DNA of 64,000 bases from Stigmatella ashevillena (GTDB lineage: Bacteria > Myxococcota > Myxococcia > Myxococcales > Myxococcaceae), in contig NZ_JAQNDM010000002.1 of the NCBI RefSeq assembly GCF_028368975.1, positions 7,868,425-7,932,424 of the forward strand, written 5' to 3'. Each line of letters begins with the position of its first letter. Position 1 is the first letter of the stretch. The notes beneath the pieces are model-generated. The model worked only from the letters and a program-made list of their open reading frames with translations. It ran no database searches and had not been told where the DNA came from. Positions 7,068 through 43,720 of this stretch are shown here, piece after piece. Both the position numbers and the translations under genes were made by a program.

Positions 7068-10000
7068 TCAGTCCAGCAGTTCCAGGAGGTCCGCCCGGGT
7101 GATGGCCGTAGCCCCGGCGGCGCCGCCGAGCGCCGCCTCGAAGAGGGCCCGCTTCTTCTCCTGCAGGGTGAGGATCTTCTCCTCCACCGTGCCCTGAGAC
7201 ACCAGCCGGTACACCATGACGGGCCGCTGTTGGCCAATGCGGTGTGCGCGGTCCGCCGCTTGTGCCTCCACGGAGGGGTTCCACCACGGGTCCACCAGGA
7301 AGACGTGGTCCGCCGCCGTGAGGTTGAGCCCCGTGGCGCCCGCCTTGAGCGAGATGAGCATCACCGGCGGGCCTTCGGGGGCTTGGAACGAGGCGGCCAC
7401 GCCGCCGCGGTCCGCGGTGCTGCCATCCAGCCGTGTGAATCCGATGCCTACTTCCCGCAGGGCCGGCTCGATGAGATCCAACAGGGACGTCCACTGCGAG
7501 AAGACGAGCGCCTTGTGCCCGTCCTCCACCGCGGTGCCGAGCGCCTCGATCAACGCCTGCACCTTGGAGGACGTCTTCGCCTGCTGTCCTGGCACGAGCG
7601 CGGGATGGCACGCCGCCTGGCGCAGCCGCAGCAGCGCTTCCAGCGCCTTCAGCACGCTGCCACCCTCTTCGAGCTGGGACACCACCTCCTCGCGCGTGGC
7701 GGCGTACACCGTGTCGTAGAGGGCCCGCTCAGGCTCGGTGAGGGTGACGTGCCGCACGGACTCGGTGCGCGGAGGAAGCTCGGGGGCCACGTCCCGCTTG
7801 AGCCTGCGCAGCACGAAGGGACGGATGCGCGCGCGCAACTGCTCGGCCGCGCCTTTCTGGTTGTCCGACACGGGCCGTGCCCACCGCTCGTCGAACTCCT
7901 TGCGCCCCCCGAGCAGCCCCTGGTTGGTGAAGTGCATCAAGCTCCAGAGCTCCTCGAGCCGGTTCTCGATGGGGGTGCCGCTCAGGGCCACCCGGAAGGC
8001 GGCCTGGAGCCCATAGGCCGCGCGAGCCACCTGGCTGTCCGGGTTCTTGATGGCCTGGGCCTCGTCCAGCACCACCGTGTCCCACGCCTGGGCCCCGAGC
8101 AATTCGGCGTCCAGGCGCAGCAGTGCATAGGTGGTGAGCGTCACATCGGCCGTCTCATCCAGAGAGCGTCCAGGGCCGTGGTAGACGGAGACCTTCAGGG
8201 AAGGACGGAAGCGCTTCACCTCCGCCGCCCAGTTAGGAAGCACGCTCGTGGGCGCCACCACCAGCGTGCCGGGCCCCAGGGTGCAGAGGGTCTGGAGCGT
8301 CTTGCCGAGCCCCATGTCGTCCGCGAGCACGCCGCCAAGGCCCGCTTGCCGCAGGAAGGTGAGCCAACTGACGCCCTGCAACTGATAGGGGCGCAGCGAG
8401 GCGGTGAGGTCCTTCGGGAGCTGCACGTCTGGCAGCTTCTCGAAGCCCTGGACCAGGGGCGCCAACCGCTCGAGCCCGGGCGGGGGAGGGTGCTCCAGCG
8501 CGTCACACAGCCCGGTGAGCTGCGGGAGGGCGTGGTTGGCGATCCGCCCATCCTTCCCGCGCGCGGCCAACAGGTCCGCCACGCGCTGGCCATGCGTCTT
8601 CAGCCACGCGGTGGGCAACGGGGCCCACCCACCGCCTTCCAGCGGCACCAGCCCCAGCCCTTCCTCCCAGGCGCGCATCACCGCATCCGCGTCCACCGTG
8701 CGAGGCGCGCCCGGTCCAGCGCCCTCCACCTGGAAATCGAGGGAGAAGCCGACCTGGGGCACACCGGTCTGCGTGGCGCCCGCGTCCACCGAGAGCGTGG
8801 GGCGCAACTGCACGTGGGGGCTCACCACGCGCGCGGCATCTCCGGTCAGACCGCCGCGCCAGCGCCGCAGCTTGTCGGCGAGCTGCACCGCCTCCTTGCC
8901 GTGCACCGTCACGCGTCGGCCGGGCACCATGTTCAGCTCATCGCGAAGCCCGTGGATGAGCTTCTGCTCGGTGGCCTCATCGCGCACGGGAACCGCGCCC
9001 GTCAGGTACACCATGCGCCCGTTGTCGATGCGCACCGAGGGCGGAGAGCCATACACCAGCGTGGGCAGCACCGAGAGGCCAGAGTCCAACTGGTTGAGCT
9101 CCACGGAGATGCGGGGCTTGAGCGTGCGGTCGATGGGCGGCAGCCGCTGGCTCTTCACATCCACCGGCATGCGCCGGGCGAAGTCCGGAAGCACCTTTCC
9201 GGTGAGATCTCCCATCTGCGCGGGCGAGAAGGTGCGCTCCTGAGGCAGCTGCTCCAGCCGTGTCCCCGTCAGGGGCTGCTCGCCAAGCCGACAGATCATC
9301 CCCCCACAGAGGGCCACCCCGGGGCTCACCACCTCGGTGATGCGCGGATCCTTCTCCACCTTGAGCACCGTCTGCTCGCCACGGTCCTCCACGGTGACGC
9401 GCGGGAGGAGGGGCTCGCTGGAGACGGACACGAGCACACCGTCGAAGAGCACGGTGCGTGCGGGCTCCAGCACCCGGAGGAGCGCATCGAGCCGTTCGGG
9501 CGGGAGCGCCCCCCGCGTGGGCCGCAGCAGCAGCTTGTCCGCGAGCAGATCGCATCGCTCCACCTGAATCCGGGCTGCCTCCACGGGGTTCTCCAGCAGA
9601 GACGTCAGGCTGCGCGCCAGGAGCCGGGCGGTGTTGTCTGGGCGCACCAGCAGGCGCTCGAGTTGCAGGCCTCCGTCCACGCGCTTGAAGCGGTACACCA
9701 TGCGCTCCGGCTTCGGCGCGGTACCGGGGCGCGCGCTGGCGGGGGCTGCGGGAGGCCGGGCCGGCGAAGGGGCTCTCTGGGGAGATGAACGCTGGGACAC
9801 CGATTGATGGAGGACGAGGGCCGCCGCCACCACGTGCTCGCAGGGGTCGACCCGGCCCTTGCAGTCGCACTCCCAGACGTCGTCTTCGGGGTAGAGCACG
9901 GTGGTCAGGGGCGTCGGCCGGCCGGTCACGCGGACGCGCAGGACGGCCTCTTCCGCGCCCATGGACTGCACGGAGACAGCGCCCGCGCGGGCCAGTGCCG

Positions 10001-28847: not shown

Positions 28848-28949
28848 GTGGTGTGGATGCTCAACGAGGTGGGGGTGAGGAGAAAAAATGGGTCATTTCG
28901 TTGAGTGGGGGCAGGCGCGAAACGCGCGCCCCCATCCAAGGAGCAGCCC

Positions 28950-30857
28950 ATGTCTTCCCGTCTTCGTTTCGCAGTCCGGCTCACCGCCGTGGCCGTCGCC
29001 ACCGCCAGCGTAGGGGCTTCCGCGCAGACCTACGCCTTTCCCGGCAGCAGCGCGGACCTTCCGGAGGGCAGCCACTGGTGGATCTCCAGCGACCACTCCG
29101 GCACCGAGAACCGCGACCTCAGTGCCGTGCGCTTCGACGCCACCGACCGCCGGTTCACCCGCGTGAAGATTCCCTTCGCGGACTACGCCGTGAACCCCAA
29201 GAACTCCGATTGGGTCATCTACGGGCTGCCCGTCACCGCCATCGCGGACGGCGAGGTGCTGACGTGTTGGCGCAACGCCCCCGAGGGCCTCAAGCCGGCC
29301 GTGCACGGAGGGGACGACGTGCCCCACCCGGGCCGCGCCGCGAATCCCCCCATCATCCCGCGCTCGGGCAACCACCTGAACATCCGCACGAACGATGGGA
29401 AGATCATCCTCTACGCGCACATGCAGCCGGGCAGCATCCCGGAGGCGCTGTGCCCCTTCAACGACACTTACGTTGCAAACGCAGAGGACCGCGTGGGCGA
29501 CCTGCCTCGCGAGGTGATGGTGCCCGCCACGCAGCGGGCCTTCGTGAAGCGGGGACAGTTCATCGGCCGCGTGGGCAACTCCGGCGCGTCGTCGAACCCG
29601 CACCTGCACGTGCACCTGCAGCCGATGACCAGCGAGACGACGATGGGCAATTCCCTCCCGCTCACCTTCTCGCAGGCCTGGCAGAAGGACGGGGCGGTGA
29701 CGTACGACTCGTCGCTCGACTTCGTTCCGCTGCGCTCCGAGGCGCTGAACCAGTTCCCCTCCGCCATCCACCCCGACCCCCTGCTGCGCCGGGGCTCCAT
29801 CACCGGTGACGCGGCGATGGAGGTTGCGCTGGCGTCCTCGAGCGACACGGTGGTGAGCGCCACGCGCGACATCTCCGGCCGACTCGTGATGGGCTCCTGG
29901 CGGCTCGCCGGGGACGGCACCTTCACGAAGCTCTCCGGCATCACCACCTCGGAGGCGTCCACCTACGTGTCCATCGCGAACCCCGGCCTGGGTCGCGACG
30001 TGGTGACGGCCGCACGGGACGCCGACGGCAAGCTCAAGCTCATCGCGTGGCGCGTGTCGTCCACGGGCCTCTTCTCCCGGCAGGCGGAGGCGGGAGGTGA
30101 CGTGGTGTCCAGCCAGATGGCGCTCGCGTCCATGCCGGGCGGAGGCCTGGGCGTGGTGAGCGCCGTCCGGGATGCAGCAGGCCGCTTGAAGGTCAGCACC
30201 TGGGAGACCTCGTCCAGCCTGGACACGATGACCCGCCGGGGCAACGGCTTCGGCGAGGATGCCACCCAAGTTTCGCTCGCGCCCGTCGCCTTCGGCCGTG
30301 TCGCAGGGGACACGGGCTATTTCAAGGGCGTCGTCACCGCGGTGCGCACCCCGGCGGGCAAACTGAGCGTCACGGCCTGGGAAATCGGCTCCACGGGCCT
30401 CGTCTACAAGCGCGGCAACTACGAGGGCGGAGACGTGGCGGACGTGGCCATCAGCAATCTCACCATCGGCAACAACGTGCGGGACGTGGTGGTCGTCAGC
30501 GCCCGGTTGCCCACGGGCGTGCTGCGCAACATCTCCTTCGACATCACCGACGCGGGCCAACTCGTGCGCCGTGACGACGAGGACGCCAGCGGCGTGCTGG
30601 ACGTGCAGGCGGCGCGGGTGGTGGGCCAGCACCTGGTGACGTCGGTGCGCGACTCGGCGGGCAACCTGCGCGTGTTCACGTGGGACGTGGACGCCAACAG
30701 TCAGGTGCACCGCACCGGGCAGGAACTCGCGGGTGACATCCTGGACGGGATGGCCATCACCTCCACCTACGTGGGCGCCCGCTTCGTCATCACCGGCGTG
30801 CGTCTGACCTCGGGCGGCGACGTGCGGTTGATCGCCTGGGACGCCAACCTGCCCTGA
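28950..30857 (+). CDS. Secreted M23-family (LytM-like) peptidase with C-terminal beta repeats
   Basis: 635 residues; AAGGAG precedes the ATG at 28950. A signal peptide ends in GASAQ. The LytM-like domain (about 40-230) shows GNHLNI, YAHM, FVKRGQFIGRVGNSG and NPHLHVHL, with the HxH zinc-binding/catalytic pair at 218-222. The family's first zinc site (HxxxD) reads H49-S-G-T-E53, a Glu in place of Asp, so activity should be tested. The last 360 residues are about seven repeats of roughly 55 residues with the core VVSAxRDxxGRLxxxxW, a probable beta-propeller or wall-binding module. Predicted role: cell-wall hydrolysis or prey lysis. Confidence 0.85.
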   Translation: MSSRLRFAVRLTAVAVATASVGASAQTYAFPGSSADLPEGSHWWISSDHSGTENRDLSAVRFDATDRRFTRVKIPFADYAVNPKNSDWVIYGLPVTAIADGEVLTCWRNAPEGLKPAVHGGDDVPHPGRAANPPIIPRSGNHLNIRTNDGKIILYAHMQPGSIPEALCPFNDTYVANAEDRVGDLPREVMVPATQRAFVKRGQFIGRVGNSGASSNPHLHVHLQPMTSETTMGNSLPLTFSQAWQKDGAVTYDSSLDFVPLRSEALNQFPSAIHPDPLLRRGSITGDAAMEVALASSSDTVVSATRDISGRLVMGSWRLAGDGTFTKLSGITTSEASTYVSIANPGLGRDVVTAARDADGKLKLIAWRVSSTGLFSRQAEAGGDVVSSQMALASMPGGGLGVVSAVRDAAGRLKVSTWETSSSLDTMTRRGNGFGEDATQVSLAPVAFGRVAGDTGYFKGVVTAVRTPAGKLSVTAWEIGSTGLVYKRGNYEGGDVADVAISNLTIGNNVRDVVVVSARLPTGVLRNISFDITDAGQLVRRDDEDASGVLDVQAARVVGQHLVTSVRDSAGNLRVFTWDVDANSQVHRTGQELAGDILDGMAITSTYVGARFVITGVRLTSGGDVRLIAWDANLP

Positions 30858-30967
30858 CACGGGTGTCCTCCCCCGAGCACCGTCTCGGGGGATTTGCCCG
30901 GTTTGCGCGACGCCGCCTTGCCGCCTGGGAGAGATTCAACGACCATCAGCGCCCTTTCCCGGAGGGG

Positions 30968-31519
30968 ATGCACTTGGAGATGCGACACGGCCACTCCGCG
31001 GGGGCCTCGCCGGACGCCGGGCTTGAAACGCTGCGGCGCGACCTGGACAAGGCCCTTGCCAGCGTTTGTCCCCCGTCCCTCGCGGACCGGAGGGATGACC
31101 TGCTGCAGGTGGCGATGATGCGGGTGGTGGAGCTGCGCAAGCGGGACCCGGGACACGCGGCGCTCTCGTCCGCGTACCTGTACCGGGTGGCGTACACGGC
31201 GCTCATCGATGAGCTGCGCCGGGTGAACGCACGCAAGGAGGTGGCGTTGGAGGAAGGGGAGCAGGCGCCCGTGCATCCCGTGGCGCCGGGAGACCCGGAG
31301 CGGTCGGCCGGCGCCGCGCAGATTGCCCGGGCCGTGCGCGACTGTCTCCAGGGGTTGATGCAGGACCGCCGCCTCGCCGTGACGCTGCACCTGCAGGGCC
31401 ACACCCTCCAGGAGGCCGCGGAACTGCTGGGCTGGGAGAGCAAGCGCACCGAAAACCTCATCTACCGTGGACTCAGCGCCCTGCGCGCCTGCCTCTCCAC
31501 GAAGGGAATCACGCCGTGA
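30968..31519 (+). CDS. ECF-like sigma factor of the CHAT operon
   Basis: 183 residues from the ATG at 30968 (GGAGGGG just upstream). Other in-frame starts, GTG 30863 and ATG 30980, cannot be excluded. Region 2 is DRRDDLLQVAMMRVVELRKR, then YLYRVAYTALIDELRRVNAR. Region 4 is MQDRRLAVTLHLQGHTLQEA then ELLGWESKRTENLIYRGLSA. No region 3.1, so ECF type. Its TGA overlaps the GTG of the anti-sigma-like gene (GTGA). It is the head of a four-gene unit ending in a CHAT protease and probably directs its own operon, but I could not identify the promoter. Confidence 0.88.
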   Translation: MHLEMRHGHSAGASPDAGLETLRRDLDKALASVCPPSLADRRDDLLQVAMMRVVELRKRDPGHAALSSAYLYRVAYTALIDELRRVNARKEVALEEGEQAPVHPVAPGDPERSAGAAQIARAVRDCLQGLMQDRRLAVTLHLQGHTLQEAAELLGWESKRTENLIYRGLSALRACLSTKGITP

Positions 31520-32226
31520 GCGAACACCGCCCCGAGGATGACTCCATCGACGACGCGGGCGTGGAGCGGCTGCGGACGGCGCTGCGCGATGAGGACGTGG
31601 CGCCAGGAGAGCCGGTGGACGCGGAGCTCGTCTGGCGTGCGGTGACGCAGGACTTGCCGGCCGAGGAGCGCCGGGCGGTCATCGAGCGCGTCGCGGCGGA
31701 TCCCGCGTGGGCGCAGGCTTGGCGGCTGGCCCGGGCGATGTCCCCGGCGGCCGCGAAGGCGGATGCACCGGCGAAGGTGCTGCCGCTGACGGACCGCAAG
31801 GCGCAAAGGAAGCGCTCCTGGGGGGGCCGTCCCGCGTGGGTCGCGATGGCGGCGATGTGGGTGGCCCTGGTGGGTGGGGCCGTGGTGCTGCGGCAGCAGC
31901 AGCAGGGGGAGGACCCGGATCGGATTCGGGGGGGAGCGGCCGAGGCCATCACCTCGGGGGTGCCGGAAGCCACCGCGCTTCCTCGCGACCGCTTCGTGTT
32001 GCGTTGGAGTGGCGTGTCCCAGGCGACGCAGTGGAGCGTGCAGGTGTCGTCGGAGGACTTGAAGGTGTTCCACCGTGTGGAGCGGCTGGAGCAGCGGGAG
32101 TACACCGTGCCGGCTTCGGTGCTGGCGGAGCTGCCCTCGGGGGCGAGGGTGCTCTGGCAGGTCGAAGCACGGTTGCCGGAGGGCGGAGTCCGGCGAAGCA
32201 GCACGTTCGTGAACCGTTTGCAGTGA
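31516..32226 (+). CDS. Single-pass membrane anti-sigma-like protein
   Basis: 236 residues. The cytoplasmic part (1-105) is acidic and helical, a single membrane helix follows (about 108-126, AWVAMAAMWVALVGGAVVL), and the outer part (about 130-236) looks like a small beta domain (FVLRWSGVSQATQWSVQV). Position directly behind, and overlapping, an ECF sigma gene plus this topology are the standard anti-sigma layout. The N-terminus lacks the zinc-finger HxxxCxxC motif, so the assignment rests on context and topology. The outer domain may sense an envelope signal or bind the next protein. Confidence 0.7.
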   Translation: MSEHRPEDDSIDDAGVERLRTALRDEDVAPGEPVDAELVWRAVTQDLPAEERRAVIERVAADPAWAQAWRLARAMSPAAAKADAPAKVLPLTDRKAQRKRSWGGRPAWVAMAAMWVALVGGAVVLRQQQQGEDPDRIRGGAAEAITSGVPEATALPRDRFVLRWSGVSQATQWSVQVSSEDLKVFHRVERLEQREYTVPASVLAELPSGARVLWQVEARLPEGGVRRSSTFVNRLQ

Positions 32227-32289
32227 GCGTGTGGCAAAGGCCCGCGTGGGGTGGGCGATTCATTCAATGACAATGCAGAGAGGGCTGTG

Positions 32290-32799
32290 ATGAAGACACT
32301 CAATGCGGCGAGGGGATGGATGCGTGCGGTGGCGGCGATGGCGCTCCTGGGGGGACTCACGGCGGCGGCGCAGGTCTCGCCCCCCATGACGATGATGACG
32401 ACGGTGCCGGTGCCGGGCGCGGCGCACGACACGGTGGTGGCTTCCGTGATGGACGTGGGTGTGAGCCGGGGCGGCACGTTGACGGTGACGTTGCGCATCC
32501 TGTCGGAGGGGGGCGTCGTGCTCGCGGAAGTCACCGGCCCGGTAACCGAGGGCTTCCCGCTGCGGCTCAACGCGACGGCTCCGACGTCCGCCGGGATCCG
32601 CGCCCAGCTCCTGCTGCCGCCGAACACCGAAGCGCTGGCCGCAGGCGTCCTGGTGCTGGAGCGATGGACCGGTACGGCTCCGCCGGTCGAGCCGCCCCCG
32701 GTCTGCCGGATTCCCAGGACGGCCACCATCGATCCGCGAGGCGGCACACCGGAGCCCACCACGTTGTTAGAGTGCTCGTACCTCCCCATCCGGAGCTGA
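32290..32799 (+). CDS. Small secreted protein of the CHAT operon
   Basis: 169 residues: a signal peptide (MRAVAAMALLGGLTAAAQ region) and a mature domain of about 135 residues rich in beta-strand patterns (GGTLTVTLRILSEGGVVLAE), with a Pro-rich C-terminal part containing two Cys (PPPVCRIP, LLECSY). It is separated by one nucleotide from the CHAT gene and by 63 nt from the anti-sigma gene, so it belongs to the same unit. Possible roles are inhibitor, partner or substrate of the protease; none is shown by the sequence. No family recognised. Confidence 0.72.
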   Translation: MKTLNAARGWMRAVAAMALLGGLTAAAQVSPPMTMMTTVPVPGAAHDTVVASVMDVGVSRGGTLTVTLRILSEGGVVLAEVTGPVTEGFPLRLNATAPTSAGIRAQLLLPPNTEALAAGVLVLERWTGTAPPVEPPPVCRIPRTATIDPRGGTPEPTTLLECSYLPIRS

Positions 32800-32800
32800 C

Positions 32801-35800
32801 GTGTCGGGACGCGGCTGGCGACAGCGCCTGGCCTGTCTGGGATGGCTCCTCCTCGGAGGAGGGCTGGTTCCTCACGGCTTCGCGGTCGCCGCCGAAGCCC
32901 CGGAGGCCTCCGCGCTCGCCCGGTGCGAGGCGGGCTTCGTCGCCCACCCGGAGGGTTCGGACACAGCGATGTGTTTCTTCCGCGAGGCCCAGGCCCCGGC
33001 GCGTCGTGAGGAGGCCCGGCGCAGGCTGCGGGGCCTCATCGCGAGTCATCCAGATCGCCCCTGGCTCATGCTCGTCCAGGGGCACCTGGAGATGCTCTCC
33101 GAACCGCGTCTGGCGGAGGCGTCCTACCGGAGCGCGGCCCTCGCGTTCCGGCGACTGGGGGACGCGGAGGGCGAGGTGATGGCCGGCATCAACCTGCGCA
33201 ACGTGTTGGGAGTGCTGGGCCGGACGGAGGAAGCGCACCCGTGGGTCCAGCGGGTGGGGGAGGTGGCCCGGGCCTCCGGCAACGCCCAGCTCCAGGTGCG
33301 CGCGCTCATCCTGGAGGCCGCCGAACTCTCCGACTTGGGGCAGGACCTGGGGCGTGCCTATCGCCTGCTCAAGCGCGCGGAGGCGCTCGCCTTCCCAGGG
33401 GGCAGCGACGGCGTGAAGAAGCAACTGCTGACCCCCCTGGCTTCCGTGAGCGCGAACCTGGGGCGCTTCGACGAGGCGCTGGATGCCTATGCGCGGCTCG
33501 CGGAGCTCGCACGGAGCACCCACGACGTGGGCACCGAGGCCCGCGTGCGCTTTGCCTTCGCGAACCTCGCGCTGAGGCGCAGCGAGGATCATCCCGAACC
33601 GGGAGGCCGACCGGAGCTGCTGCGCCTCGCGAGGGAAGCGCTCGCTGCGGCAAAGAACGCGGAGAGCAAGGCCTTTGAGGCCCAATCCCTGCGCCTCGTG
33701 GCGGAGCTGCTGGGGGACAGCCCGGAGGAGCGGAGCGAGGCGGAAGGACACCTGGAGCGCTGTCTGGACCTGGCCCAGGACGCGGGGCTGCCCGAGCGGC
33801 GCATCGCCTGTCTGTGGACGCGCGCGGAGCGGCTCGCGGGCGTGGATGCCGTCGCCGCCGAACGCGACGCGGACGCGGCCCTGGCCCTGGCCGCCGAGCA
33901 CGGCAACCCGCGCTATCTCGCCTCCGCGTGGAGGGCGCGCTCGATGGTGGCCTTCCGCACGAAGCCCCTGCCGGAGGCCCTGCAACAGGCGGAGCGTGCC
34001 CTAGACGCGGTGGAGGTCTTGCGCCAGTTGCAGAAGGACGCCTCCAGCCAGGCGGAGTTGTTTTCCGGCTGGGCCAATGACTATCACCGGCTCGCCGGTC
34101 GCACGCTGGAGGCGGGGGAGACGTCCGCCTTGCCGTCCCGCGAGGCACTGGAGCGTGCCTTCGCGGTGAGCGAGCGGCTGCGTGCGCGGACGTTGTTCGA
34201 GTCGCTGGTGGCCTCTCGGGCGCTTGTTTCCGCGGAGGACACACCGGAGCGCCGGGAGTCGCGGGTCGGTGTGCTGCGCGACCTGTCCGCCACCCAGCGG
34301 CGACTGCTGGCGAAGGAACTGTCCGCGTCCGAGCGCACGCGCCTGCTGGGCGAACTCCAAGAGTTGGAGCGACGGGAGCACGAACTGCGGCCGACCCCCC
34401 GTCACGCCGAGGTTCGGTTCGCCTCGTTGGCTCAGACCGAGCGGGGCCTGAGGCCCGAGGAGGCGCTGCTCGTCTTCCTCGTGGGAGCGGCTCAGGATCT
34501 CCAGGGTGCGCCTGCGGGGGGCGCGTGGGTGCTGGCCGTGACCCGAGAGGGGACGCGCGCGTACCGCCTCCCCGAACGTGCACGGCTGCGTCCCGCGGTG
34601 GCGCTCCTGTCGGGCCTCATCGAGCGGCGGGACGGTTCGGAGGCTGGGGCCGCTGCCGCGCTGTACGCGCAGTTGCTCTCCCCCGCCCTGCGGGAGCTTC
34701 CCCCGGGCGTGTCCCGCCTGCTGTTCGTACCGGATGGGCCGCTGCACGACCTGGCCTTCGCCGCGTTGCGGGAGCGGGCGGATGGGCCGCCATTGATCGC
34801 CCAATACGAGCTCGCGCGGGTGCCTTCCGCCAGCCTCCTGCACCACTGGAGGGAGCGGGCGGTCCGTCCCCCGGGAGGAGAAGCCCTGATTCTGGCAGAC
34901 CCCGACCGGGAGGCCGCCCCGACGGTGGTGGCCAGTGCGCGAGGCGGCGTGTTCGGGGAGACGGCGAACCTGGGATCGCTCCCCGAAGCGAGGCGCGAAG
35001 GGCACACCGTGGAGGACTCCTTGGAGGACACGGCCGTGAGGCCCCGGTTGCTGGTAGGAGCCGCCGCATCCGAGCAGGCCCTCAAGGCGTCCCGGTTGGA
35101 GGATGTGCGCATCCTCCACGTGGCCGCGCATGCCGTCGTCGACGTCGAAGCCCCCGAGCGTTCCGCGCTGGTGTTGGCTCCAGGCGCGGAGCAGGAAGAC
35201 GGCCTGCTCCAGCCTCGGGAAATCACCGGGCTGGGCCTGGGGGATGCGCTGGTGGTGCTCTCCAGTTGCCAGGGCGCGTCCGGCACGCTGCTCGCGGGAG
35301 AAGGGGTGCTGAGCCTCGCGAGGGCCTTCTTCGAAGCCCGGGCCCGCGCGGTGGTGGCGAGCCTGTGGCCCCTGCGTGACGCCGAAGCCGCGTGGCTCCT
35401 GGAGCGCTATTACAGACATTTGGCCGCCGGGCAGGGAGTGTCCCTGGCCTTGCGTTCCGCCCAGCGCGAGGCCTGGGAGGACGGTCAGCCCGCGGCGGCT
35501 TGGGCGGGGCTCGGGGTGATGGGAGACGCGGCGCTGGTCCCCGTTCCTTCAGACGAAGCGAAGGCCGCTCAGGCAAAGGGCAGGGGAGTCGGTCTGATGC
35601 TGGGGGGCGGTGCCTTGGGCCTCTGCGCCCTCGCATGGTGGTGGTGGCGTCAAGCACGCACAGGAAACGTTGAACCAAGAATAGGGTTTGTGTTTTGCAT
35701 TGCCATGTCCACTCCCGCCTTCGCGCAGCAGGAGGAGGGTCCGTTCGCCAGCACTTCCGAGCTGGTGAGCTACTGGTCGGCGCAAAACACCAGGGGTTCA

Positions 35801-35839
35801 GCCGTTCAGAGAAGGGCTCAGGATCTATCTCGACGGTGA
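32801..35839 (+). CDS. Exported TPR-CHAT (caspase-fold) peptidase with C-terminal membrane helix
   Basis: 1012 residues from a GTG with GGAG five nt upstream. A signal peptide (LACLGWLLLGGGLVPHGFAVAA) is followed by TPR-like helices (about 45-480). The CHAT domain (about 600-915) has the paired catalytic residues of the caspase/separase clan: H777 in LHVAAHA and C823 in VVLSSCQGA, with the conserved FEARARAVVASLWPL and GVSLALRSAQREAW after them. A membrane helix lies at 930-950. The protease domain is therefore predicted outside the cytoplasm, unlike defence-type CHAT enzymes. The last about 45 residues (after MSTPAFAQQ) look like part of a different secreted protein fused in frame. Confidence 0.87.
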   Translation: MSGRGWRQRLACLGWLLLGGGLVPHGFAVAAEAPEASALARCEAGFVAHPEGSDTAMCFFREAQAPARREEARRRLRGLIASHPDRPWLMLVQGHLEMLSEPRLAEASYRSAALAFRRLGDAEGEVMAGINLRNVLGVLGRTEEAHPWVQRVGEVARASGNAQLQVRALILEAAELSDLGQDLGRAYRLLKRAEALAFPGGSDGVKKQLLTPLASVSANLGRFDEALDAYARLAELARSTHDVGTEARVRFAFANLALRRSEDHPEPGGRPELLRLAREALAAAKNAESKAFEAQSLRLVAELLGDSPEERSEAEGHLERCLDLAQDAGLPERRIACLWTRAERLAGVDAVAAERDADAALALAAEHGNPRYLASAWRARSMVAFRTKPLPEALQQAERALDAVEVLRQLQKDASSQAELFSGWANDYHRLAGRTLEAGETSALPSREALERAFAVSERLRARTLFESLVASRALVSAEDTPERRESRVGVLRDLSATQRRLLAKELSASERTRLLGELQELERREHELRPTPRHAEVRFASLAQTERGLRPEEALLVFLVGAAQDLQGAPAGGAWVLAVTREGTRAYRLPERARLRPAVALLSGLIERRDGSEAGAAAALYAQLLSPALRELPPGVSRLLFVPDGPLHDLAFAALRERADGPPLIAQYELARVPSASLLHHWRERAVRPPGGEALILADPDREAAPTVVASARGGVFGETANLGSLPEARREGHTVEDSLEDTAVRPRLLVGAAASEQALKASRLEDVRILHVAAHAVVDVEAPERSALVLAPGAEQEDGLLQPREITGLGLGDALVVLSSCQGASGTLLAGEGVLSLARAFFEARARAVVASLWPLRDAEAAWLLERYYRHLAAGQGVSLALRSAQREAWEDGQPAAAWAGLGVMGDAALVPVPSDEAKAAQAKGRGVGLMLGGGALGLCALAWWWWRQARTGNVEPRIGFVFCIAMSTPAFAQQEEGPFASTSELVSYWSAQNTRGSAVQRRAQDLSRR

Positions 35840-35993
35840 GGTGTACCGCCCTGGTAACCCCCCTGACTACTACTACGCCGCCATCAAGACCTGCTACGGC
35901 GATGTGAGCTTCTACGGAGCGGTGAGGTATTACGTCGTCGAGAGCTATTACGACGGCTTTGGGCCGCTCTATCCTGGCAACGACTGCTATTGA
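35769..35993 (+). pseudogene. 3' remnant of a small secreted protein
   Basis: In a frame different from CHAT, a stretch ending at the TGA 35991-35993 encodes a Tyr-rich sequence (GLRIYLDGEVYRPGNPP, DYYYAAIKTCYGDVSFYGAV, RYYVVESYYDG, YPGNDCY). It has no start codon; the frame opens after a stop at 35766. The CHAT frame just upstream (35690-35800) contains what looks like a signal peptide (FVFCIAMSTPAFAQQEE). The simplest reading is one small secreted-protein gene split by a frameshift near 35780-35830, with its 5' part now fused to CHAT. Confidence 0.45.
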
Positions 35994-36081
35994 CACGGGT
36001 TGACGCGTTTATCTCCGCGTCGGAGGCATTCGGCAGCCTGCTGGTGGCCGTGTGTTCGAAGCCCTGGCGCTCACGGGCAGC

Positions 36082-37122
36082 TTATGTGAGCCAGCCCCAG
36101 TCGGTCTCCTCCAGGAGCGGGAGCCGGCCCCTGCGGCGCCGGGCGGAGACCTCCTCGCGCCAAGCCTCTCGTCCGCCCGGGAGCGGCCAGGCGCGTGAGA
36201 CGGTTCCCCGCGGGTCAGGGGTGAAGTTGAGCAGCAGCATGCGGTTGACGCGGTCGACGGTCTCCGGCGTCGCTCCGGTGCGCAGCTGGAACTCCGCGCT
36301 GAACAGGGCGCCCTCCTCGCGGACGGCGTTCCAGGGGCGAGGCCGGTCAATGAATGGCCACAAGCCCAGCAGCAGAGGCTCCACGCCTTCGAGCAGCGCG
36401 GCGTGGAGCCGGTCATGGCCATCCAGCACCACCCACTTCGCCAGGATGTCCACGAAGAGCAGCAGCACGGGCGGCAACGTCCCGTCCCTCGCGCGCTTTC
36501 GCCAGCTCTTCACGCGCCCATCCTCGGGAGCGGAGAGCGCACGCAGTCCGAGCACGGCGCCCGGCCGCTGTTCTGGCAGCGACTCCCACCAGTCCTCCTT
36601 CCAAGCGAACAGGAACCGCGTCACGGCGGCCAGCGAGTGCGGTGGCAGCGGAGGCTGACCGAAGCCCCACTCCATGGGGGAGACGGGGTGCCGCTCCGCC
36701 TTCTCCGCCGCGATGGCGCGCACGGGGCGCAGACACCAGTGGCCGGCGTGGAGCACGGGCAGGGGCGCCTCCACGAGCGAGCGCGCCACCCGCCAATTCC
36801 AGGCCTCCCACCACGTCTCGGAACCGGGTGAGGCCTCCACGGCCCGGACCTCGGGTGCGGACAGCGGCGGCAGGGCTTGGGGAGCAGTGGCCGTTCCCCG
36901 AAGGAAGACCGCGCGGTCCCAGTAGGAATCGATGCGGGTCCAGAGCAGCGTCTGTTCCCCTCCGCGCAACCGGATCCGGTAGTCCGGCGCGGCTTCCAGA
37001 TGCACCGAGGGCCGCCGCGCCCAGCGGCCCAGGGAGGGCACGTGCAGCAGCAGTCCAGGGCCAGGGGTCTCCAGTCCCCAACTCCGGGTGTCATCGGCGA
37101 TGATGGAGACTCCTGGGTTCAT
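36082..37122 (-). CDS. Uncharacterised protein with ParB-like LDGHDRL motif, downstream of a lanthipeptide precursor
   Basis: 346 residues, AGGAG 8 nt before the ATG. No signal peptide or membrane helix. The N-terminal half is rich in Trp (WTRIDSYWDRAVFLRG; TWWEAWNWRVARSL). The centre contains KWVVLDGHDRLHAALLEG, which resembles the nucleotide/nuclease-site motif of ParB/sulfiredoxin-like folds (V-x-DGHHRL). It lies 98 nt behind the mersacidin-type precursor on the same strand, so it may be co-transcribed and could act on or with the peptide. That is inference. I know no characterised lanthipeptide enzyme of this type. Confidence 0.7.
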   Translation of the reverse strand: MNPGVSIIADDTRSWGLETPGPGLLLHVPSLGRWARRPSVHLEAAPDYRIRLRGGEQTLLWTRIDSYWDRAVFLRGTATAPQALPPLSAPEVRAVEASPGSETWWEAWNWRVARSLVEAPLPVLHAGHWCLRPVRAIAAEKAERHPVSPMEWGFGQPPLPPHSLAAVTRFLFAWKEDWWESLPEQRPGAVLGLRALSAPEDGRVKSWRKRARDGTLPPVLLLFVDILAKWVVLDGHDRLHAALLEGVEPLLLGLWPFIDRPRPWNAVREEGALFSAEFQLRTGATPETVDRVNRMLLLNFTPDPRGTVSRAWPLPGGREAWREEVSARRRRGRLPLLEETDWGWLT

Positions 37123-37220
37123 GCGGCGCGCTCCTCGAGATGCCCGGTACCCATGGGCCCCTGGAGCGTACCCTGTGAGACGCCCGTGCCGCCTGTCGCG
37201 CGCCAGGCATAGCGAAGGGC

Positions 37221-37463
37221 TCACGCTTCCAGGTCACGGCAGGTCAGCGACAGCGTGGGACACTGGAGGGTGAAGAAGCAGCACACATCGGGATGGGTGA
37301 CTCTCAAGACCTGCCCACCGGCAACATCACCCAACTCGGAGTCTTCGAGATCCGTGAGCGGATTGCCGGAAGGATTCTCCGGGAGGGCTGTTCGCTGTTC
37401 GAGCGGCAGGCTCGCTCGGTACTCTGGGTTCTTCCAGGCCTGGACGATCATCGCAGGGGTCAT
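37221..37463 (-). CDS. Class II lanthipeptide precursor (mersacidin/lichenicidin family)
   Basis: 80 residues, GGAG seven nt before the ATG. The leader MTPAMIVQAWKNPEYRASLP then RTALPENPSG and LEDSELGDVAGG matches the mersacidin/lichenicidin leader (AWK-P-YR, LPENP, acidic stretch, terminal Gly-Gly). After GG50 the 30-residue core begins QVLRVTHPDVCCFF and contains Cys 61, 62, 68 and 75 with Thr/Ser at 56, 65, 70, 72 and 74, so up to four (methyl)lanthionine rings are possible. No LanM synthetase, LanT exporter or LanP protease lies in the window, so the modifying enzymes must be elsewhere or unconventional. The longer open frame upstream is not real. Confidence 0.82.
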   Translation of the reverse strand: MTPAMIVQAWKNPEYRASLPLEQRTALPENPSGNPLTDLEDSELGDVAGGQVLRVTHPDVCCFFTLQCPTLSLTCRDLEA

Positions 37464-37649
37464 GGCGTTCTCCGGGGGGCTGAGAAGGAAAGACGCCCCA
37501 CGGAGACTGTCTTTCATGCACAGATTTGTGACGGGGAGAGCCTCGCCGCCTGCATGAACGCTGGCTGCACCGTGCACAGGGAATGAATTATTCGGCGCCC
37601 GTTGCGTCTGAGTGCCTGGTTGGGTCCGATCCCTGAAGGCAGATCTCCT

Positions 37650-40103
37650 ATGCAGATGGCCAAATGGTGGCTTGGCGCGCTCGCGGGTGCGCTGGTGGGC
37701 GGTACGGCGTGTTCCGCGTCGGACTTCGACGCCGAGCCGACGGATGGAATGCCGGAGTTCCAACTGGAGCTGCTCTCGGGGCCCTCGAAGTTGGGCACGG
37801 GCTGGAAGGACCCCATGGTGGTGCAACTGTGCAACCGGGGCGACGTGCCCGGCAGCACCGAGGTGGGCTTCTATCTCTCGCGCGACAGCATGATCGACGA
37901 GAGCGATGAGTTCTTGGCCTCCAGCGAGACAACCCTGGTGCCGGCTGGGACCTGCCGCAGCACAATCGCGAAGGCCGAGACGCTGCGCGTACCGGAGGGC
38001 AGCTACTACCTGGGTGCCATCGCGGATCCTCATGACCTGGTGCGCGAGGGCAACGAGCGCAACAACCGCCACCTGGGTCGCACCGTGCAGGTGGACCTCA
38101 CCCCGCCGCCGGCGCCGGTGCTCTCGTGGCTGGAGTCGACAGGGGGCTCCTCGCCGGTGCCGAACATCTCGGCCCACAGTGAGCCAAACGCCGCCATCCT
38201 CCTCTTCCGGGGCGATCGCTGCACGGGCATGGCGGTGGCCAACCTGACATCGGGCTCGTCCTGCCCGTATCCGGACGGTTCTCCAGAGTACGTGGTGAGC
38301 AGCTACTCGGCGCGGGCGTATGACTTGGCGGGCAACGTCTCGGGCTGCACCAGCATCCCTGTGCCGTCCGGGTCCGGGTACCCGGACACGACGCCGCCGG
38401 CCCCGCCGGTGCTCGTGGGGGTGGACTGGCACTACGGCACCCCCCAGCACGAGCTGCGGGTGACGGGCACGGCCGAGCCACGCAGCGAGGTGGCCGTCTT
38501 CGTGGACGTGGCGTGCACGGGCATACCGGCGGCCACGGCGTTCGCGGGGACGAACGGTTCATTCAGCGCGGTGCTCGCGGTGGCAGCGACGGGTCCGGGC
38601 AGCATTCGCCGGGTGTACGTGGCGGCGCGGGACGCGGCGCTCAACGAGTCGTCGTGCGTGCAGGGGCCGACGTACGAGACGCCGTGCACGCCGGGTTACG
38701 GCAACTGCGATGGGAACCCGGCCAACGGCTGCGAGGTGGACCTGACGGCGGACGCGGACCACTGCGGCACGTGCGGCACGACGTGCACGGGGCAGCGCAA
38801 CGCGCAAGGGGTGTGCGTGGCGAGCACGTGCGACGAGGCGTGCCCGGTGGGCACGTACGACTGCGATGGGACGCGGGCCAATGGCTGCGAGTCCACGACG
38901 GCGTGTGGGTCGGCGACGTGCACGGTGGCGCGGACGAAGGAGCTGATGATCACCTCGCTGGCGGTGGTGGAGGACTCGACGCGCACGGCCCTGGGCGGGG
39001 CGTGGCACTTCGAGACGCTGATGCGGGCGATGGCCGGGGGCGGCGATCCTTCGGCGCTGGTGCGCCAATGGCTGAAGACGTGGAATACGCCGCAGACGAT
39101 CAACGGGCTGACGGTGTCGGCGCGGCCACGGATGACGACGAAGGTGCTGGGGCCGTGGGAGGAGCGAAGTGGGGGTGCGTCTCAGCCGTTGAACTTCGCG
39201 CACGCGCCGTTCCGGCTGCTGGCGATCGTGAACCGGATGGACCTGCGTCAGCCGGGGGTGCAGGCGGGAGAGGGCCGGTTCGTTTTCGGGGTGGTGGACC
39301 CGAATGGAGTCCCGCTGGAGTTCACGGTGATCCTCGAGTTCGCGCTGCCGGGCACGACGCCGGAGGCGATCCAGCGCTGGGCACGCGATTGGCACGAGCT
39401 GGGGCAGTTGAACCTGGGAAGCACGGAGTTCAAGACGAAGCTGCAGGGGCTGACGGACCGGTTCGCGAAGGCGGGGGTGCTGCCCGGGAGGCCGCACGGC
39501 AACGCGCTGAACCAGATCCGGACGAACGAGGTGGAGCTGGGCGAGCTGTGGGAGATGCGGGAGTTCGTGCTGACGGCGACGGGGTTGCAGCCGACGACGG
39601 TGAAGCTGACGGTGGACAACGGGTTCAACAACACGAATGTGCTGAGCAGCTTCATCAATACGAACGAGGAGGCGATCCTGGCGGAGCAGCACACGGTGCC
39701 GGAGAGCTTCTCGGGGCGGCGGTTCCTGGGGGCGTCGTCGAAGGTGCCAGAGGATTTCTTCTGGCGTGCGCCGTCGGTGGGGAACGAGGCGCGGCACAAG
39801 TTCTCGCTGAACACCTGTAACGGGTGCCATGCGGGAGAGACGGCGACGGAGTTCACGCACATCTCGAATCGAGCAGCGGGGCAACCGGCGCAGCTATCGC
39901 TGTTCCTGCGGGGGGGGGCGGTGCAGGATCCGGTGGCGTTGATCTCTCGTCCGTTCGATGACCTGGGGCGGCGAGCGCAGGACCTGGAGACGCTGGTGTG
40001 CGGGACGCCTGGAGGCTCGCGCCTCCAGGGATCGGAGCTGACGTTCGATGCGTTGCTGGGCTACCCGGCGCCGTCGAACCTGCCGAAGGCGCGAGTGCAC
40101 TAG
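37650..40103 (+). CDS. Large lipoprotein with CARDB-like, Cys-repeat and CxxCH-bearing domains
   Basis: 817 residues. Lipoprotein signal ending GGTAC21. The first about 140 residues resemble a CARDB beta-sandwich (MVVQLCNRGDVPGSTEVGFY; VREGNERNNRHLGRTVQV). Two beta domains with Pro-rich linkers follow, then Cys-rich modules (NCDGNPANGCEVDL; HCGTCGTTC; DCDGTRANGCES). The C-terminal about 370 residues form an enzyme-like or binding domain with a CxxCH haem-c-type motif (NTCNGCHAGET near residue 724), where covalent haem attachment is possible. It is a surface or periplasmic lipoprotein of unknown function. A second in-frame ATG lies two codons downstream of the chosen start. Confidence 0.8.
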   Translation: MQMAKWWLGALAGALVGGTACSASDFDAEPTDGMPEFQLELLSGPSKLGTGWKDPMVVQLCNRGDVPGSTEVGFYLSRDSMIDESDEFLASSETTLVPAGTCRSTIAKAETLRVPEGSYYLGAIADPHDLVREGNERNNRHLGRTVQVDLTPPPAPVLSWLESTGGSSPVPNISAHSEPNAAILLFRGDRCTGMAVANLTSGSSCPYPDGSPEYVVSSYSARAYDLAGNVSGCTSIPVPSGSGYPDTTPPAPPVLVGVDWHYGTPQHELRVTGTAEPRSEVAVFVDVACTGIPAATAFAGTNGSFSAVLAVAATGPGSIRRVYVAARDAALNESSCVQGPTYETPCTPGYGNCDGNPANGCEVDLTADADHCGTCGTTCTGQRNAQGVCVASTCDEACPVGTYDCDGTRANGCESTTACGSATCTVARTKELMITSLAVVEDSTRTALGGAWHFETLMRAMAGGGDPSALVRQWLKTWNTPQTINGLTVSARPRMTTKVLGPWEERSGGASQPLNFAHAPFRLLAIVNRMDLRQPGVQAGEGRFVFGVVDPNGVPLEFTVILEFALPGTTPEAIQRWARDWHELGQLNLGSTEFKTKLQGLTDRFAKAGVLPGRPHGNALNQIRTNEVELGELWEMREFVLTATGLQPTTVKLTVDNGFNNTNVLSSFINTNEEAILAEQHTVPESFSGRRFLGASSKVPEDFFWRAPSVGNEARHKFSLNTCNGCHAGETATEFTHISNRAAGQPAQLSLFLRGGAVQDPVALISRPFDDLGRRAQDLETLVCGTPGGSRLQGSELTFDALLGYPAPSNLPKARVH

Positions 40104-40150
40104 AACTTCCGATCGGTTTGACGCGCTGACCTTGTGGAGCGCCCAGACCG

Positions 40151-42139
40151 CTATGGGCCGAACTTCAGGAACAGCAGGTCCGGCCAGCGGTCAGCCGGTA
40201 CGTGGGACACGCCATCCACGATGATGGCGTGCCTGAACTGGCCTCCCAGCACCGTGCTCCCGTCCGCCGAGACTCTCAACTGTGGCGCTTCGATTCGCGA
40301 GTCCAGCAGGCGGGACCAGCGGTGCGCACCGGAGGAGGTGAAGCGCACCACGGCATAGGTGTACTGCACCGGATGCCCCAGCTCGCCGCCCCCCAGATCC
40401 ACCGGGCCGTTGGTATGCACCAGGACGGAGAGGTTGCCGGCCGGGTCCGAGGCGAGGCCATCAGCGTCCTCAAAGCCGGTGTCGCCCAGCCCCTTCGCCC
40501 AGATATCGCCGCCCGCAGGCGACAGCACCCCGAGCATTCCGTCAATCCCCGGCCAGGGCTCCGTCCCGTGCTGGCTGGTGATGGTGGAACCCGCGAAGCT
40601 GAAGGAGCCCTCGAAGCGGCCCGCGAAGGCCACACCGCCCCCGGGCATGGGTGTGAGTGAGTTCGCGTACCCAACCGGGCCATTGAGCGCGCGGGACCAC
40701 AGCAGCGTCCCCTCCGGGTTGTAGGCGGCGACGAACGGCGTCCTGCCGTTGATGGCGCCCAGGCGGCCGGCTCCCGCCTCCCCACCGACGAAGATGCGCC
40801 CGTCCGCATGGGCCGCCACGTCCCAACCCCAGGTGTCGCTGCCGTTGATGCCAGCGGGAACCGCCAGCGACCACAGGTGCTCGCCCTCCCAGGAGAACTT
40901 CGCGAGGAACATTCCGGAATGGGAGAGGTCCTCCGAGGACCGGAGCGCTTCGCCTCCCAGGTTCAGCAAGCCGCCGAAGTGGCCGGTGACGATGAGGCTG
41001 CCATTGGCATCGGTGGCCAGCCCGCGCGCCACGGCCTTGGCGTCGCCCCCCTCTCTGGACGGGATGAAGCCACGGGCCCACACGACGTTCCCGTTGGGCG
41101 AGAACTTGGCGATGAAGAGCGCGTAGGCGAATGGCTCGGTCCTGGGCAGGGGGCCTTCGCCGAAGTCGGGAGCGCCCATGTAGCTGCCCACCATGAGGAT
41201 GTTGCCCAGCGGGGTGACGGCCAGGGCGCTGGGGTGGACCTGGATGTCGGCGCTCCCGGGAACGTAGACGCGCGACCACTGGTGCGCCCCGTTCGCGCCG
41301 TACCTCATCAGGGCGAGTGCGTGGTTCGTGGTGAAGGTCTGCCCGCCGAAGTGGGCGCTGCCGTAATAGCGCGCCGCAGCGACGAAGCCCCCCCCGGGGT
41401 GCGTGGCCATGGCACTGAAGCCCTGTTCGTTCGCTCCTCCGCGCGCCCAAGTCCACGCGAGGTCACCTCCCGTGCCCCGGCGTTCGCAAAACGTCCAGGA
41501 CAGGGTGAGGATGAGCTGTGGCTCCAGGGCGCTCCGCTCGCTGGAGGCGAAGTCCACGCCATTGCCACCCGTGGGAATCAGCGCGAAGTCGTAGGTCCCC
41601 GCGCCCGTCACCACCGAGCTCACGTCGTACTCGACCTCAGTGTGACTGCCGACGGCGCCCAGGTCTCCCAGCGCGCCGCCCACGCGCGCGGGGCGGTTGT
41701 TCCACGTCAGGGTATCTGCGCTCCAGTTCGAGCCGGCGCGGTAGAGCGCGGGCCCGTCGGTGCTGCCATCCACGGCATACAGCCGGAGCCGCGTCCGCGT
41801 GAGCGTAACGTTCTGGAGGATTTCGGGGTCGACGGAGACGCGCAGGTAGGCCTCCATCCGGGGGGACCCATCCACGAGCAGCAGGTCCCCCCCCTCATGC
41901 GTCGCGGCCGGCTCCGCCTCGACCGCGTAGGCGTCCTCCGAGACCGTCACGCGGAACTCCATGTCCCGGGTCACCTGCTGGCAGGATTCCAGCGCGGCCT
42001 CCTGCTTCGACGTGCGCTCCTCCGGCGCGGGGCCGGGTGCCGCTGCTTCCTCGGCCATGCCGCAGTGAGTCAGCATCATCAGCCCCGCCGTTGCGCCCGC
42101 CACCCTGCCCACGCGCTTCCACACACTCCACCCTGACAT
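40151..42139 (-). CDS. Lipoprotein with DNRLRE-like domain and SBBP-type beta-propeller
   Basis: 662 residues, AGGAG seven nt before the ATG at 42139; upstream in-frame codons are rejected. Lipobox LMMLTHC. The first domain (about 60-225) has DAYAVEAEPAATHEGGDLLLVD then LRVSVDPEILQNVTLTRTRL and NWSADTLTWNNRP, the pattern of DNRLRE/CBM96-like carbohydrate-binding domains. The remainder is six or more propeller-like blades (FIAKFSPNGNVVWARGF; GLATDANGSLIVTGHFGG), as in SBBP repeats. Probably an outer-membrane surface protein for glycan or matrix binding. It converges with the preceding lipoprotein gene (47 nt between stops). Confidence 0.85.
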   Translation of the reverse strand: MSGWSVWKRVGRVAGATAGLMMLTHCGMAEEAAAPGPAPEERTSKQEAALESCQQVTRDMEFRVTVSEDAYAVEAEPAATHEGGDLLLVDGSPRMEAYLRVSVDPEILQNVTLTRTRLRLYAVDGSTDGPALYRAGSNWSADTLTWNNRPARVGGALGDLGAVGSHTEVEYDVSSVVTGAGTYDFALIPTGGNGVDFASSERSALEPQLILTLSWTFCERRGTGGDLAWTWARGGANEQGFSAMATHPGGGFVAAARYYGSAHFGGQTFTTNHALALMRYGANGAHQWSRVYVPGSADIQVHPSALAVTPLGNILMVGSYMGAPDFGEGPLPRTEPFAYALFIAKFSPNGNVVWARGFIPSREGGDAKAVARGLATDANGSLIVTGHFGGLLNLGGEALRSSEDLSHSGMFLAKFSWEGEHLWSLAVPAGINGSDTWGWDVAAHADGRIFVGGEAGAGRLGAINGRTPFVAAYNPEGTLLWSRALNGPVGYANSLTPMPGGGVAFAGRFEGSFSFAGSTITSQHGTEPWPGIDGMLGVLSPAGGDIWAKGLGDTGFEDADGLASDPAGNLSVLVHTNGPVDLGGGELGHPVQYTYAVVRFTSSGAHRWSRLLDSRIEAPQLRVSADGSTVLGGQFRHAIIVDGVSHVPADRWPDLLFLKFGP

Positions 42140-43720
<1,581 letters not shown>

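Follow-up and report, generated by a model that had tools for sequence, protein, structure and literature searches.

The 64,000-nucleotide (nt) stretch of Stigmatella ashevillena DNA analysed here (contig NZ_JAQNDM010000002.1, positions 7,868,425 to 7,932,424), referred to as the window, carries on its minus strand a gene for a class II lanthipeptide precursor, which probably belongs to a set of dispersed precursors served by shared enzymes encoded elsewhere in the genome. The gene and its two parts are as follows.

37221..37463, minus strand: class II lanthipeptide precursor gene, 80 amino acids (ATG at 37463, stop at 37221-37223), recognized by its translation, TIGR03898 and six relatives 53-71% identical
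37314..37463, minus strand: leader, residues 1-50, with a GG end and a predicted C39 cut after G50; TIGR03898 spans residues 6-50
37224..37313, minus strand: core, residues 51-80, with four Cys and five Ser/Thr, from the translation and the alignment of relatives

The translation showed a leader with AWKNPEYR, LPENP, an acidic stretch and Gly-Gly at residues 49-50, followed by a 30-residue core with Cys at positions 61, 62, 68 and 75 and Ser/Thr at positions 56, 65, 70, 72 and 74. The initial annotation had proposed just such an 80-residue precursor, with a family leader and a core of four Cys, two of them adjacent, and five Ser/Thr, and the translation and TIGR03898 were in good agreement with it; its position also stood, and the strand, which it had not given, is minus, the plus-strand frame not being the one described. 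Because TIGR03898 (mersacidin/lichenicidin family) matched the precursor with an E-value of 8.5e-18 (64 bits, where the cut-off is 23.5) in NCBIfam, and relatives sharing the CC pair were found at six other loci in five genomes, the frame is a real precursor gene and not a product of chance. The remaining NCBIfam matches with E up to 1 comprised the plantaricin C model, under its cut-off, and a weak NHLP-leader match, and none to a Nif11 model, while a Pfam scan of the precursor gave no match and a PDB search with it as query gave nothing meaningful. A ribosome-binding site is kept in front of the gene. As to the initial claim that the product is undescribed, no description of this core was found in the literature searched, most subscription papers being outside its reach.

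The initial annotation had also stated that neither LanM nor LanT lies within the 64 kb, and this held: tblastn over the whole window at 1e-15, with the LanM and the C39 exporter of the same genome as queries, detected no relative of either, and Pfam identified no enzyme for ribosomally synthesized and post-translationally modified peptides among 28 other frames between 17 and 54 kb (the longer and shorter readings of one gene being counted as two), the window ends being covered by tblastn only. The genome-wide search for LanM, LanT and LanB that it had called for did, in turn, locate LanM, C39 exporters and LanB-like proteins outside the window. The genome (10.95 Mb, two contigs) encodes a single LanM over the family cut-off (C2:6008341-6011139; 998 bits), which has its own precursor just upstream, contains DUF4135 and LANC_like domains, bears CHG at two zinc-site positions and has LicM2 as its nearest solved structure (3.7e-136). 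A third precursor at C2:9628814 adjoins a C39-ABC exporter (C2:9629395-9631620), beside which another frame, at 9025-9336 (plus strand) of that locus (L009), encodes a second small peptide (MSNKTEVQKTL...VVGGAAQ), possibly a further exported one. The distance from the window gene is 1.9 Mb to the LanM and 1.7 Mb to this exporter; of the features of a class II system, a bifunctional LanM is thus present in the genome, and clustering of the LanM with the window precursor is absent. The same genome holds a class I set of two LanB-like proteins, a LanC and two C39 exporters (C2:982-998 kb), as well as a class III RamC-like enzyme (C2:3.99 Mb).

To place this arrangement, precursors were catalogued by TIGR03898 in 116 related genomes, among them that of the window, and those more than 15 kb from any LanM were taken as orphans, a LanM fragment under the cut-off in genome G066 being counted as LanM. 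The 97 precursors occurred in 25 of the 116 genomes, 59 of them near a LanM and 38 as orphans in 11 genomes; 21 of the orphans lie in one- or two-contig genomes. LanM over the cut-off was present in 29 genomes, namely in all 25 with precursors and in 4 of the 91 without. One LanM with scattered precursors, as known here from gene positions, is therefore an arrangement found with 38 of the 97 precursors, and genome G059 has nine orphans and one LanM over the cut-off. In a tree of 40 LanM sequences, the hub LanMs, defined as the precursor-locus LanMs at least 63% identical to that of the window genome, formed a clade of 11 (support 92/86, under the tool's mark for firm) within a 100/100 clade of 16, and all 11 bear CHG at both places. 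Hub LanMs hidden away from precursors were also considered and rejected, since 20 further LanM places outside the tree were at most 49% identical to any hub LanM. Orphans were found in 10 of the 11 hub genomes versus 1 of the 14 remaining genomes with precursors (compared by Fisher test, with counts uncorrected for shared ancestry), and 37 of the 38 orphans fell in the 11 genomes with a hub LanM. Among the hub-adjacent precursors, those at G020:C2:615580 (L078) and G003:C279:39711 (L118) have a normal leader and a Cys-free core, with GPDQDL and TPYIRV in the core common to both genomes.

In genomes with both kinds of LanM, all 25 orphan leaders were closer to the precursors of the hub than to the others; of the other 13 orphans, for 12 the genome offers hub precursors only and for one (G041) it has no hub, and against the whole set 37 of 38 orphan leaders were closer to hub precursors. 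The hub-type exporter was present in all 11 hub genomes and in G041, with 77-100% identity, and the best exporter match in the same-genus genomes G001 and G004, which have no precursors, reached 60% and had an internal stop. This exporter is encoded near the hub LanM in Archangium-type genomes and separately in G000 and G005, yet all belong to the same clade (100/99).

Upstream of the window gene, a putative regulatory element was recognized.

37503..37532, minus strand: promoter-like element, with GTCACA intact at 37532-37527 and a second box ACAGTCTC at 37510-37503 bearing an apparent 2-nt insertion compared with the relatives

The element, GTCACA-N14/15-ACTCCNTC, is mostly located 63-80 nt upstream of the ATG; it was defined by eye from 28 upstream regions, and 11 was set as the threshold score. 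Scores of at least 11 were obtained for 48 of 61 hub and orphan precursors. The same 61 read on the opposite strand gave 6, the non-hub precursors 2 of 35 and the control genes 10 of 251, the controls being frames of at least 300 residues from the same loci that were selected by G+C at codon positions and taken to start at their first Met. For precursors unseen when the element was defined, the counts were 29 of 37 (hub and orphan) and 2 of 32 (non-hub). Among the matches listed, the strict pattern occurred in 64 of the 116 genomes, with four in the window genome versus two for a reversed control, and only one of those four precedes a precursor. That the element is private to lanthipeptide genes was rejected, since it also stands before other genes, and it is therefore better regarded as a shared promoter class. 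The genes behind it at 20 sites and 3 loci, identified by reading the frames alone, included SnoaL-like, LanC-like and small secreted proteins; at L201, L219 and L204 the genes read as SnoaL-like or LanC-like, which likewise points to a wider promoter class. An ECF41 sigma factor was considered as a candidate reader of the element: compared with its target promoter, TGTCACA-n16-CGTC (PMC3426412), the first box is similar and the second box and the spacing differ.

The alignment with other myxobacterial members of the family, also called for in the initial annotation, gave CC relatives at six loci, 53-71% identical to the window precursor. The CC pair thus occurs at seven loci in six genomes, the window included, with C61, C62 and C68 invariant in all seven and the fourth Cys kept in six. 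When the window gene was compared with the six relatives, the ratios of nonsynonymous to synonymous substitution rates (dN/dS) lay at 0.16-0.43 in the leader, which by this comparison is under purifying selection. In the core, the two closest relatives gave 0.28-0.34 and three more gave 0.61-1.09, and for the sixth no ratio could be computed; pairs not involving the window gene had core ratios of up to 2.75. The conserved DNA block comprises approximately the gene and 70 nt upstream, and at none of the six other CC loci did the flanks of the window gene find a match; a larger mobile unit, which common flanks would have indicated, is thus not in evidence for this gene. Between sister species, long flanks are common to some of the other orphans; therefore the dispersal is not one of general hopping.

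The initial annotation had suggested that the peptide is modified either by a remote LanM in trans or by a different enzyme. The former is supported by the LanM clade, the leader matching, the exporter clade and the shared promoter-like element, and modification in trans by the LicM2-like hub LanM, in the manner of the prochlorosins, appears from these comparisons to be the best reading; the latter found no support. According to this proposal, the precursor would be transcribed alone, probably from the GTCACA-type promoter, and its leader would be bound by the LicM2-like LanM at C2:6008341, which would dehydrate Ser/Thr of the core and close thioether rings on Cys. The likely rings would join T56 to C61 or C62, T65 to C68, and T70 or S72 to C75, leaving one of the two adjacent Cys free or engaged in another ring, and the C39-ABC exporter at C2:9629395 would then cut after GG and export the product. 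The action of this LanM and exporter on this peptide, as well as the ring pattern, is thus deduced from gene comparison, and the biological role would probably be antagonism or signalling.

Beyond the branch support and the shared ancestry mentioned above, several findings weigh against modification in trans by the hub LanM. The window leader is 44% identical to the LanM-adjacent precursor of its own genome, the lowest value among the 37 orphans with a hub precursor in the same genome. The hub genome G047 has no orphan, and G041 (one contig) has one orphan and the hub-type exporter without a hub LanM, its three LanMs over the cut-off sharing 35-44% identity with the G000 hub LanM. Furthermore, 17 of the 38 orphans come from assemblies with three or more contigs, and some of these may have a LanM across a contig end. 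The window copy of the element, with its second box disturbed, scores 10.5 and hence falls under the threshold, most likely owing to the 2-nt insertion; a threshold of 10.5 would be passed by 17 of the 251 control genes. Some orphans elsewhere are short or Cys-free in the core, and as 3 of the 38 orphan cores have no Cys, an orphan may be a relic. The window gene itself could accordingly be a copy that landed without a working promoter and is bound to decay, neither made nor modified, for which the disturbed second box, the flanks common to none of the six other CC loci and the least hub-like leader of its set would all speak. We nevertheless regard this as rather unlikely, given that the frame is intact with all four core Cys and the ribosome-binding site kept, and that dN/dS against the nearest relatives, G003a and G002, is 0.25-0.29 in the leader and 0.28-0.34 in the core, the core rising to 1.09 against others.

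The alternatives that invoke another enzyme fared worse. The class I LanB/LanC set and the class III RamC-like enzyme are both available in the genome, but the TIGR03898 leader family is tied to LanM and the orphans follow the hub LanM clade, which makes modification by either of them improbable. Least credible of all is that the only co-directional neighbour of the precursor is an undescribed modifying enzyme forming a mini-cluster with it.

36082..37122, minus strand: downstream neighbour gene, judged outside the system, with no Pfam match and a history separate from that of the precursor (boundary at about 37210)

This gene, for a 346-residue protein with a DGHDRLHAA stretch, is the next one on the same strand, and the stop of the precursor is overlapped by a GTG of a longer reading of its frame. 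On the other hand, it shows 92.5% DNA identity with G057, from another genus, over 36075-37209 only; G002, G003 and G006 have a CC precursor and no match to it, and it was found in G001, G051, G055, G060 and G062, none of which has a precursor. On its distribution and the boundary it was rejected as a partner enzyme.

A single LanM that serves scattered precursor genes is known from the prochlorosins (PMC10783134), and the prochlorosin/synechococsin systems of marine picocyanobacteria (ProcM/SyncM) combine conserved leaders with diverse cores, some of them Cys-free (PMC11251773). The present set resembles them in the arrangement of its genes, in its leaders and in its cores, and differs in that their precursors are of the Nif11 type (PMC10783134), in contrast to the TIGR03898-type leader of the window, and that ProcM-group enzymes bear a CCG motif (PMC12328550), in contrast to CHG in the hub LanMs. 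LanII-2B, a class II product of Archangium violaceum made in Escherichia coli, has four Ser/Thr and underwent two dehydrations to give two rings with a third Cys free (PMC9576775); by composition it has the same make-up of three Cys and four Ser/Thr as some hub-adjacent cores, e.g., G059:C1:5436166, and it may be a product of the hub LanM clade. Unlike the window precursor, it is cluster-borne. A 2014 survey described exporters that lacked a cluster and proposed a location elsewhere for the genes of their peptides (PMC3951391). In the literature searched, with the same limit of access as above, no description of scattered precursors in myxobacteria was found. The type 2 lantibiotics of the mersacidin/lichenicidin family share with the present system the leader family, a LanM closest to LicM2 and a C39-ABC exporter in the genome, and differ in that the window precursor is not clustered with LanM. 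Its core is presumably also unlike theirs.

Taken across the catalogue, we slightly favour the view that Hyalangium/Archangium-type myxobacteria possess a dispersed system in which a single LanM, LicM2-like and of CHG type, and a single C39 exporter would serve up to ten lone precursors, the LanM and the exporter being encoded far from each other in Hyalangium-type genomes. The leaders of these precursors would be nearly constant, their cores would change fast and their promoters would be of one class. Of the 97 precursors catalogued, 38 would go unseen in genome mining that starts from LanM and looks no further than 15 kb. If the proposal is true, it would add to the prochlorosins another, independent instance of such combinatorial biosynthesis, here without the CCG signature linked to promiscuity. 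Should one ordinary-looking LanM truly modify many unlike cores in trans, it would be a tolerant synthetase of non-cyanobacterial, LicM2-like type, and the basis of LanM substrate tolerance would become testable, given that the CCG signature is absent.

As for the surroundings, the scanned neighbours at 17-54 kb were ordinary, including TPR-CHAT, aldo/keto reductase, LysR, SUF system and MFS proteins, among others. The region 28867-42290 is a mosaic of blocks (28867-35650, 36075-37209, 37211-37535, 37581-40101 and 40135-42290), each 74-94% identical to different places in different relatives and without synteny between blocks in the compared loci; the block common with G057 ends at about 37210 and the one common with G001 starts at 37581. 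Approximately 6 kb from the precursor, the frame 30863-31519 (plus strand) encodes a protein of the sigma-70 family that matches regions 2 and 4 weakly.
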